Shown here: one piece after another, positions 53,496-59,739 of the stretch
How positions within the stretch are numbered: position 1 is the first letter of the stretch
How the letters are laid out: each line of letters begins with the position of its first letter
The notes under the pieces: model-generated
What the model saw: only the letters and a program-made list of their open reading frames with translations
Databases searched by the model: none
What the model was told of the DNA's origin: nothing
Program-made: the position numbers and the translations under genes
Source: Planctomycetota bacterium
GTDB taxonomy: Bacteria; Planctomycetota; Phycisphaerae; UBA1845; UTPLA1
Assembly: GCA_016235815.1 (NCBI GenBank)
Contig: JACRIM010000013.1
Coordinates: forward strand, 1-64,000
Reading direction: 5' to 3'
Length of the DNA: 64,000 bases

Positions 53496-53864
53496 TCAAG
53501 TGATCGGAAGGCTTCTACGCCGGATCCGTTGCTTATCAATGGATACGATGCTGGCGCCTAATGAACGCTCCTCGATTGACTCAAACGTCCGACTGAGTCG
53601 GTCTATCAATTCGTTATTCGTCCATTCACCGCCACGAAACAAAATCAGCCCCGGCCCATCGGCACGTGACAATGCCAGAAGGCGAGGGTAGTCAAGGTCT
53701 GCGGTAATAACGATTCGCGACTCCGCCCGTGCCCGACTCAAGATAGCATCATCGCTTGAAATAAACAGGCCCGCGGTTGATGCATGGACGGCGTCGTGGC
53801 AACTTCGATTCAGCCATTCCACGATGAACGGCGGCAAAGGCATATCGACGAGGAATCTCATCAC
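53496..53864 (-). CDS. DUF5615-type PIN-like toxin
   Basis: A 122-residue protein of the DUF5615/Mut7-C-like PIN group. It begins MMRFLVDMPLPPFIVEWLN, with Asp7 of the first acidic motif, continues SSDDAILSRARAESRIVITAD (second and third acidic sites) and LDYPRLLAL, then a helical end. These are putative RNases of addiction modules. Its start overlaps the stop of the DUF433 gene by 4 bases. Unlike the PIN gene at 28860-29275, it appears intact. Confidence 0.8.
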   Translation of the reverse strand: MMRFLVDMPLPPFIVEWLNRSCHDAVHASTAGLFISSDDAILSRARAESRIVITADLDYPRLLALSRADGPGLILFRGGEWTNNELIDRLSRTFESIEERSLGASIVSIDKQRIRRRSLPIT

Positions 53865-54082
53865 GTCAGAAGAACGGTTTCATCGTCGGCGAGACATGCC
53901 GCATAGCGAAGCACTTCGTCGATGTCCTCTGCCTCGATGTATGGATACGCCTTCAGGATCGTATCTTTTGTTTCGCCCCCGGCAAGCAAACCAAGCAGTC
54001 GAGAAACAGGAAAACGAAGATTGCGAATGCACGGCTTCCCTGTGCAAACGGCCGGATCAACAGTAATTCGACTAAAGGACAC
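53861..54082 (-). CDS. DUF433 antitoxin
   Basis: A 73-residue DUF433 protein, a small winged-helix-like family usually paired with DUF5615. MSFSRITVDPAVCTGKPCIRN and VSRLLGLLAGGETKDTILKAYP are the family's hallmarks. The start is a GTG at 54082 with AGGTGG just upstream. It probably binds DNA and represses the pair. It follows gpmI by 67 bases. Confidence 0.85.
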   Translation of the reverse strand: MSFSRITVDPAVCTGKPCIRNLRFPVSRLLGLLAGGETKDTILKAYPYIEAEDIDEVLRYAACLADDETVLLT

Positions 54083-55870: not shown

Positions 55871-55908
55871 AGACCATCTGTCAGTTGATCATCACCCGGG
55901 AGAGAGGC

Positions 55909-57117
55909 ATGTTGAAATATTCGTCCATCATTGTCGGCATTCTCGCTTTCTTCGCCGCCTCAGCACACGCCTCGCCTCCCGGCGTCGTCATCTCACAACA
56001 AGTCGACGTCAACAACTACAAGCACTATCACCAGGACCTGCTCTACACCTACACCGGCCAAAGCCGCGGCCTCGCCGGCGCCCAGCATGATCTCGCCCGC
56101 GACAACATCAAGAATGAGTTTATGTCCTTCGGTCTCTCCGTCGCGCTTGAACCATTCGTCTACGTCGCCACCACCTACCACAACGTCGTCGCCACCCAGC
56201 CCGGCACCGACAACCCCACGCAGACCGTCGTCATCGGCGCCCACTTCGACAGCGTCAACTGCCCGGGCTCCGACGACAACGCCACCGGCACCGCCATGGT
56301 CATGGAACTCGCCCGCATCCTCTCGCAACACCGCTCCAGCAAGCGACTCCGCTTCGTCGCCTTCGATCGCGAAGAGCAGGGCCGCCGCGGCAGCATCGCC
56401 TACGTCGCCGCCCACGGCGCGGATAACACTGTCATGGCCGTCACCGCCGACATGGTCGGCCACGACAGCGGCGCCTACGGCATGGACCTCTACAGCAAGG
56501 CCACCTCCTCCGCCGTCACCAACGGTGTTGCCTCCGCCATCACCACCTACGGCAACGGCCTGGCGAGCTTCACCAACTTTGGCAACTTTAGTTTCAGCGA
56601 TCACTGGTCCTTCGAAAACGTCGGCATCCCCGCCGTCGTCATCATCGAGCGCTGCTACACCTGCAACACGAACTACCACACCGTCAACGACAAAACCGAT
56701 TTCTCACCGACCTACATCAACTACAACATGATCGCCGACCTCACCCGCAGCGTCGCGGGCTACCTCGTCGACACCGTTCCCCTCTCCCTCTGGGGCGACA
56801 AAGACAACGATGGCGACGTCGACGACACCGACTTCACGGAATTCCGGAACTGCTTCGGCAACCCCGCCGCCCCAAGCTGCTACGCCTTCGACAAAAACAT
56901 GAGCGGCACCATCGACTGCACCGATTGGCCCGCCTTCAAAGCCGCCCACCTCACCAGCCAGGGCCGCATCCCCCTGCTCACCCCCGACGACTTCGCCAAC
57001 GTCATCCTCCAGATCGACACTACGCCATCCAAAGTATGCGTCTGCGACCTAAACACGGACACCATCCTCGACGGCCTCGACGTCCAAGCCTACGTCGCCG
57101 CCGCGACTGCGCCGTAG
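55909..57117 (+). CDS. Secreted M28-family zinc peptidase with dockerin-like tail
   Basis: A 402-residue exported aminopeptidase-like enzyme. The ATG at 55909 follows GGGAGAGAGG; a signal peptide runs to about 22. Zinc ligands and catalytic residues are His112 (GAHFDSV), Asp123 (PGSDDNATG), Glu156/157 (FDREEQG), Asp181 (TADMVGHD) and His256 (TNYHTVND). The C-terminal 110 residues carry dockerin-like calcium loops (DKDNDGDVDDTDF, DKNMSGTIDCTDW, CDLNTDTILDGLDVQ). The final unit stops abruptly at AAATAP, and a sequence that would continue it is found 1.1 kb downstream, beyond the abiV gene, so the tail may be truncated by insertion. Confidence 0.88.
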   Translation: MLKYSSIIVGILAFFAASAHASPPGVVISQQVDVNNYKHYHQDLLYTYTGQSRGLAGAQHDLARDNIKNEFMSFGLSVALEPFVYVATTYHNVVATQPGTDNPTQTVVIGAHFDSVNCPGSDDNATGTAMVMELARILSQHRSSKRLRFVAFDREEQGRRGSIAYVAAHGADNTVMAVTADMVGHDSGAYGMDLYSKATSSAVTNGVASAITTYGNGLASFTNFGNFSFSDHWSFENVGIPAVVIIERCYTCNTNYHTVNDKTDFSPTYINYNMIADLTRSVAGYLVDTVPLSLWGDKDNDGDVDDTDFTEFRNCFGNPAAPSCYAFDKNMSGTIDCTDWPAFKAAHLTSQGRIPLLTPDDFANVILQIDTTPSKVCVCDLNTDTILDGLDVQAYVAAATAP

Positions 57118-57430
57118 CTTCCCTACCGTCTTTCCCGCGCTCGCGCGCATCCAGTCCGATCCGTGATGTCATTGAACTGTATGCAAATTGTCAACGTTTG
57201 ACCCATTCTGCATGCATCATGTATTGCTTCATTCCGATTAACTACAATTGCCCCGCCGGAGGCGGGAAACGAGCCCCGTGGTTGCCTGAAACCGATAATG
57301 GCGTCATGCAGGTGAGGCCCTCGCCGGACGTCGGCACGTGTCTCAGTAAAGTAATCGGCGGCTGCTTCAAGAACCTTAAACGGACGTATCGGGGGCCCTT
57401 ATCCTCCTCAAATCTCCTACAAAGGTTACA
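57118..57430. other. AT-shifted leader region of abiV
   Basis: A 313-base gap in which base composition turns visibly AT-richer than the flanks from about 57160. It has a CCCGCC/GGCGGG hairpin near 57252-57266 and, just before abiV, AAAGG spaced 5 bases from the ATG. A TTGACC near 57200 could be part of a promoter, but no convincing -10 follows. No gene seen. Confidence 0.5.
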
Positions 57431-58138
57431 ATGCCTATGAATGTACATGAGTTTATTCAAAAGCAAAGAAAGGGTACACTTTCTGTTGATGAAATTGGCA
57501 GCGGCATGCACATGAGTTTCGTCAATGCAGTCGCCCTGATAGAGGACGCCGAGATTCTGTTGAAAAGAAGACCGGGACGATCGATTAGTCTTGCGGTACT
57601 GGCAATTGAAGAAATCGCGAAAGTGGTAATGCTAGCAGACGCTGCACTGCGTGCAGCCATATCTCCCGTTGACTGGACGGTAATCCAGAAAGACCTCGGA
57701 CTACGTTCACACCAAAACAAGCAATTCGTGTTCGCCGCTTACGGTCGATCAATACTTAAAAAAATTGCCTCAAACGCCGGAAAGTCAAACTATTATGAAA
57801 ACCCGGTACCCGAGGGAATTGTGCCACTCTTGGACTATTTTAAGCAATTAGGTTTTTATGTTGACTTGGTGAACGGACGGTTCACATCTCCTCAAGAGTT
57901 TGGAATGGACAATCGCAAATGGGCTAAGTGGCTCATCAAAGTCGCGAAAGAGCGCCTCGCGAGCATTGAGCATCTCCACTGTACCAAAGCAAAATCGATC
58001 AAGTTAGCTCGTGAGGCGGCTGAGTTAGCACGGATAGCTGCGGGCTCATCTGGAAATGCCGACTTGATAAAGAAAATCAAATTGTTTTTGCAACGGAAAC
58101 GCACGGCCAAGAGATCGAGGGTTGAGTCGCGAACTTGA
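57431..58138 (+). CDS. abiV: AbiV-family abortive infection (HEPN) protein
   Basis: A 235-residue protein resembling the AbiV/HEPN family that aborts phage infection in lactococci. The conserved core is visible: FVNAVALIEDAEILL (30-44), an arginine stretch, then SLAVLAIEEIAKVVMLAD (53-70), followed by the LRSHQNKQF segment (91-99) where HEPN proteins carry basic/His residues of the RNase site. The codons are AT-rich (AAA, TTT, GAA) unlike every neighbour, which suggests horizontal transfer. AAAGG precedes the ATG. It lies alone between two pieces of dockerin coding sequence. The family call is by motif; anti-phage activity is inferred. Confidence 0.75.
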   Translation: MPMNVHEFIQKQRKGTLSVDEIGSGMHMSFVNAVALIEDAEILLKRRPGRSISLAVLAIEEIAKVVMLADAALRAAISPVDWTVIQKDLGLRSHQNKQFVFAAYGRSILKKIASNAGKSNYYENPVPEGIVPLLDYFKQLGFYVDLVNGRFTSPQEFGMDNRKWAKWLIKVAKERLASIEHLHCTKAKSIKLAREAAELARIAAGSSGNADLIKKIKLFLQRKRTAKRSRVESRT

Positions 58139-58211
58139 GATATTTTGGAACGACATCTAGGGCATCTATGGACATGCACTACTTTTTGATACACAGCAAT
58201 AATGCCCTTAA

Positions 58212-58340
58212 TGCAACCTCGACGGCCTCGTGATCTTCGCCCCCGTCTCCGCCCCCCTCTGCGCCTTCGACCTTACCGGCGAAGGCATCGTCTCCGACGC
58301 CGACATCCCCCCCTTCGTCACCCGTCTCCTCAGCGAATAG
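58212..58340 (+). pseudogene. Stranded dockerin-type protein tail
   Basis: A 42-codon open frame ending TAG at 58338-58340, without a start codon and preceded in frame by TAA. It encodes CNLDGLVIFAPVSAP then LCAFDLTGEGIVSDADIPPF and VTRLLSE, exactly the ending of planctomycete dockerin-like tails. The LDGL position aligns with LDGL in the last unit of the M28 peptidase, and LCAFDL would follow that gene's truncated AATAP end. It is probably the displaced 3' end of the peptidase gene or of a sister copy. Confidence 0.65.
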
Positions 58341-58448
58341 CCCCACTCCGCGTTGCAAAGCAGCCCCTCCTTCCCTGCGTCGCTTCGTGGCTCCGTCGCT
58401 TAAACTGCACTCGGCTCCTTTACCGCTTAACCCCTCGGCCCGCGCCTC

Positions 58449-58476
58449 AAGTCTCAGGACTTAAGACTCAGGACTT
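58449..58476. repeat. Tandem duplication of a 14-mer
   Basis: AAGTCTCAGGACTT (58449-58462) is followed directly by AAGACTCAGGACTT (58463-58476); the copies differ by one base. Each has AAGTC/GACTT ends, so the unit can also fold on itself. Confidence 0.8.
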
Positions 58477-59003
58477 CCCAAAAAAGTTACAAACCCCCAA
58501 CCCGCATTCCCACGCAAAAAACAAAGGTTCAGGCGAAACGCCGAGCAAGATTGATAGGCGTGTGCAGGAAAGAGATCACCACACAATGAATCGAGGAACG
58601 CCAATGCCGTGCGAACTTTACATGACCGATGCGTCTCACGTCGAAAATCCGCCCTGTAGGAACCCAGTTGTTTTCTCGCCTCAACCCAATCAGTGTCATT
58701 CTGCGCAATCTGCGGTTTCATCCAAAAACCACGCAAACCCTTTGTGCGTTTTTGTGGGCGGTAAAACGGTTTTTTGCGCTTTTTTGGGGGGGGATTATTT
58801 TTTCGTACGTCCCGAACTGAACTCCAACCGAGTCAGTTACTCTCCGTTTGTGTCAGTTCATTTTGACCAACAACATTCGATGCTATTCATTCAGCATTCG
58901 AATTCCGTCCCAGGTCGTCCCAGTTTTTCCCAGCTCGTGCCAGCTCTTTTTCATCCCACCGTCGCGCCGCGACCCCTTCCTCCCCTCGGACCCTCGGCCC
59001 CTA

Positions 59004-59035
59004 TTTCGACTTTTCGACATTTCGACATTTCGACG
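59004..59035. repeat. Four tandem TTTCGACN octamers
   Basis: TTTCGACT, TTTCGACA, TTTCGACA and TTTCGACG in a row, the same octamer family as the coding array at 22562-22601. Here it is intergenic, about 95 bases before the sod start codon. Confidence 0.8.
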
Positions 59036-59127
59036 TTTCCCCTCTCCTCCTTGACCCCCCTTTTCCAGCGTACTAGAGTCCCCGCGTTAGATTTAACGAC
59101 AAACCACAGCCACCAGGGAGAAACGCC

Positions 59128-59739
<612 letters not shown>

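Follow-up and report, generated by a model that had tools for sequence, protein, structure and literature searches.

A solitary, probably acquired abiV gene beside an intact M28 peptidase gene and a dockerin gene remnant in a planctomycete

Within a 64,000-nt stretch of DNA from a GC-rich planctomycete (the window), an abiV gene lies between the gene of an M28 peptidase and a short, startless frame with a dockerin-like end, which raises the question of whether abiV was inserted into the peptidase gene or whether the three elements have separate origins. The first-pass annotation had favored insertion, proposing that the peptidase gene ends abruptly within a dockerin unit, that the downstream frame is its missing end, and that a 14-bp direct repeat marks the site.

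In order to decide between these possibilities, we compared the peptidase with its relatives. The gene occupies 55885..57117 on the forward strand (PF04389, E 1.7e-34), with an alternative ATG start possible at 55909. Its closest orthologue in 60 related genomes, from another genus of the same family (G008, C15:512111-513274), shares 62% identity over residues 17–406 of 410, has the same dockerin architecture, and terminates behind the same units at the corresponding codon (...ADMNLDGTVDGRDVAAQVAADLGN vs. ...CDLNTDTILDGLDVQAYVAAATAP, each followed by the stop codon), with no tail behind it. Another match, from G046 (58%), was not used, as its alignment reaches residue 351 only. Several long proteins of same-family genomes with this dockerin region also end a few residues from the same point, e.g., in ...ADTNDDDVNDAADVQPYVDALLAN. 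Because the orthologue and these proteins all end at or near the same position, the peptidase, judged by this comparison, is not truncated and its dockerin region is complete, contrary to the abrupt end described before. The orthologue differs in its setting, being located away from the interval discussed below and adjoining an IS4/5-type transposase gene; the peptidase gene may therefore itself change places. This transposase gene (L010 2896-3699) has an apparent frameshift.

We then looked for the origin of the downstream frame. The remnant (58213..58340, forward strand) indeed lacks a start codon and has a dockerin-like C-terminus, ending with LCAFDLTGEGIVSDADIPPFVTRLLSE and the stop codon at 58340. 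A search of the whole genome, a draft of 60 contigs, found its DNA again in three places, C11 (83%), C44 (87%), and C24 (77%), where the matches are the terminal parts of intact frames that are 874, 1134, and 633 codons long, respectively. The encoded proteins are of the secreted type, with an Ig domain ahead of the dockerin units. The C11 match extends about 60 bp beyond the stop codon, so that the 3' flank of the remnant (58341..58401, forward strand) is homologous to untranslated DNA of that paralogue. By these DNA matches, the tail is the 3' end of an Ig/dockerin gene, a family other than that of the peptidase, and cannot be counted as the peptidase's lost end. Compared with the paralogues, the remnant retains GCAACCTCGACGGCCTC (16–17 of 17 bases); the 39 bp that should follow are missing, and from there to the stop codon 91, 92, and 80 of 106 bases match. 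A gap-free placement of its left end gave only 14/22 matches, and the reading with an apparent 39-bp internal deletion near the left end was preferred. Composition and paralogues alike identify the remnant as native. No front part of the Ig/dockerin gene was found upstream of the tail or between the peptidase gene and abiV. As to flanking DNA, a GCGTCGCTTCGTGGCTCCGTCGCTT-like stretch after the remnant (58351-58401) is found again at some eight other genomic places, and intergenic DNA around CCTCAAGTCTCAGGACTTAAGACTCAGGACTT (58438-58500) is a dispersed repeat with more than 20 copies.

The 14-bp repeat, CCTCGACGGCCTCG, is real: it is exact at 57066..57079 and 58217..58230 (both forward strand), with no other exact copy in the window. 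The first copy consists of the LDGL codons in the last dockerin loop of the peptidase, and the second lies in the remnant's dockerin loop codons. Bases 1–13 of the repeat are present six times in the genome, and these sites include the corresponding loop of the intact paralogues on C11 and C24. Identity between the 40-nt blocks at 57063 and 58214 is 75%. Had the peptidase once continued into the tail, the DNA directly after the first copy (GACGTCCAAGCCTACGTCGCC...) should be part of the insert; it is rich in GC, however, and codes for the conserved last part of a dockerin unit, which contradicts such an origin. We therefore rejected a target-site duplication, since the copies sit in two different dockerin genes, each having its own loop in the orthologue or the paralogues. 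On sequence grounds, the 14-mer is shared dockerin coding sequence and not an insertion mark.

The abiV gene itself (57431..58138, forward strand) encodes 235 amino acids. Its product matches PF18728 (HEPN_AbiV; E 1.2e-20, 74.6 bits, curated cut-off 27.1) and TIGR04498 (E 1.2e-18, 67.8 bits, cut-off 27), in support of the original assignment. E60, E61, K64, H94, K97, Y143, and D145 are invariant in seven aligned AbiV members and are kept here; H94 is the alternative conserved His proposed as an active-site residue of AbiV (Anantharaman et al., 2013, PMC3710099). A search with the single sequence missed the solved AbiV structures, and the family profile alone found them: the profile of the aligned members matched chains 9bj7/9bj5 at E 1e-11. 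The AlphaFold model is modest (pLDDT 62), and its best PDB matches were again AbiV (E 0.018, TM-score 0.34 by query length). Taken together, these profile and residue matches identify the gene as a real member of the AbiV family.

Compared with Lactococcus lactis AbiV (PF18728, TIGR04498; PDB 9bj5, 9bj6, 9bj7), the profile match spans almost the whole domain, the EExxK, H94, and YxD positions are conserved, and there is one chromosomal gene, as reported for the lactococcal system (PMC3231927); in contrast, the sequence is distant and the host unrelated. Common to this protein and the HEPN superfamily are the mostly helical character of the model and the alternative His described for AbiV, whereas the family-conserved Rx4-6H motif is absent, as was reported for AbiV generally (PMC3710099). 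Lactococcal AbiV reportedly binds the phage protein SaV and probably inhibits translation generally (PMC3231927), and one solved AbiV entry bears the title 'an RNase in a two-component antiphage system'. No second component was visible near abiV among the small frames of the segment and its vicinity. A promoter scan showed no excess over shuffled sequences and found no sigma-70-like promoter on the abiV strand. By analogy with its family, the gene is likely to function in abortive infection.

The composition of abiV sets it apart. Its GC content is 0.468 and its GC3 0.485, while most other long ORFs of the window have a GC3 of 0.70–0.78, and its codon index (0.476) is the lowest among them, with codon statistics drawn from the window in place of genome-wide ones. 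As a compositional outlier, abiV was therefore probably acquired horizontally. Counting its own genome, AbiV was present in 4/114 genomes of the order and 8/392 of the phylum; the 16 other members of its taxonomic family all lacked it. No close relatives were detected in genome_contigs or viral_contigs, nor by tblastn in plasmids and phages. In one genome with an AbiV relative (G056), this gene and another one that weakly matches SMODS (second-messenger synthetase) are separated by about 2 kb (L068 5630-6334, 8510-10168), and the two perhaps form a small defence cluster.

The lower-GC segment was delimited as 57118..58212, from the peptidase stop to the edge of the remnant; the acquired DNA itself may have other ends. 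In 200-bp windows, GC was 0.42–0.52 over about 57300-58200, which agrees with the AT-rich DNA reported around abiV and, together with the codon index, answers the suggested composition check, but 57118-57300 was not clearly AT-rich. The segment had no match elsewhere in the genome. Apart from abiV, its sole recognisable gene, it held no integrase, transposase, or further defence gene, and we rejected an integrase-borne defence island. What stands of the proposed minimal defence island is a lone foreign-looking abiV, unaccompanied by mobility genes and beside the startless dockerin gene end; its insertion into the 3' end of the peptidase gene does not stand. An Rfam scan of 56900-59130 gave no match up to E 1, and the remaining small frames inside or near the segment had no meaningful match in Pfam or PADLOC.

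We further compared the setting with that of other genera. In the window, gpmI and a superoxide dismutase (SOD) gene are separated by 3367 bp, an interval holding the M28 peptidase gene, abiV, and the remnant. In genomes of three other genera (G016, G011, and G009), gpmI and an SOD gene are divergent neighbours about 195–230 bp apart. The firmest comparison is G016, where the SOD is a good orthologue (67% identical); the SOD adjoining gpmI in G011 and G009 is 41–49% identical and may be another paralogue. Given 3.4 kb here against this short spacing there, the whole interval has the look of an accessory patch flanked by two conserved genes. The related genomes included no close strain in which the site is empty. 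Adjoining gpmI on the reverse strand is a toxin-antitoxin-like pair (53496-54082), made up of DUF433 (53861-54082) and a DUF5615 PIN-like gene (53496-53864); by eye, a similar-looking pair seems to come after the C11 dockerin paralogue (L002, about 1860-2400).

Collectively, we consider it highly probable that a solitary, horizontally acquired abiV stands in a gpmI–SOD accessory patch. Following the intact M28 peptidase gene, the patch would have some 1.1 kb of DNA with lower GC that contains abiV, and then a decayed Ig/dockerin gene of which the 3' end is left. The arrival of abiV would most likely have proceeded by illegitimate or homology-assisted recombination, and most likely removed or replaced the front of a dispensable Ig/dockerin gene. 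Its product, presumably a helical HEPN protein, would most likely act like its lactococcal counterpart and, once a phage infects, abort the infection by blocking translation, probably through RNase activity.

Among the alternatives, we give a serious though smaller chance to the possibility that abiV and the remnant are chance neighbours, the remnant being the end of an old pseudogene that a duplication or deletion left behind, and abiV having entered intergenic space independently, disrupting nothing. The remnant's own internal deletion and the traceless loss of its front are consistent with this; on the other hand, the distance from the end of abiV to the remnant's left edge is only 74 bp, suggesting that one event set the border. 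It is unlikely that incoming DNA carrying abiV together with a dockerin gene end recombined with local dockerin DNA, the repeats serving as short homology. Dockerin-coding DNA on either side of the segment and the similarity of the two 40-nt blocks would suit such a capture, but the native character of the remnant indicates that it was not imported with abiV, and with a single short orphan frame (42 codons, the window copy) among 49 genome matches to this C-terminus there is no repeated pattern. Other islands at dockerin codons, for which a search had been suggested, were likewise not found in this C-terminus family. We regard as very doubtful the broader idea that repeated dockerin-coding DNA provides homology by which small one-gene cargo, abiV for instance, is swapped in and out where secreted-protein genes end, with no dedicated mobility enzyme. 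Insertion into the peptidase's last dockerin unit, with a 14-bp target-site duplication and the natural end cut off, is hardly credible: the exact repeat on both sides, the same-strand dockerin-like tail, and a frame that stays open if fused at the 14-mer speak for it, but the orthologue's end, the tail's likeness to the Ig/dockerin paralogues even past the stop, the presence of the repeat in intact paralogues, and the conserved coding after its first copy speak against it.

In summary, the find is mostly ordinary in kind, and the reading of a split dockerin tail fails. Both outcomes that the first-pass annotation had named as refuting it were observed, namely an orthologous peptidase with the same end and no tail, and a tail that derives from another family. 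Exact short repeats at the codons of repeat proteins can mimic target-site duplications. The abiV gene described here, which is probably acquired, solitary, and intact, adds a rare and distant AbiV to a phylum in which about 2% of sampled species have the family, and it stands alone in an accessory patch.
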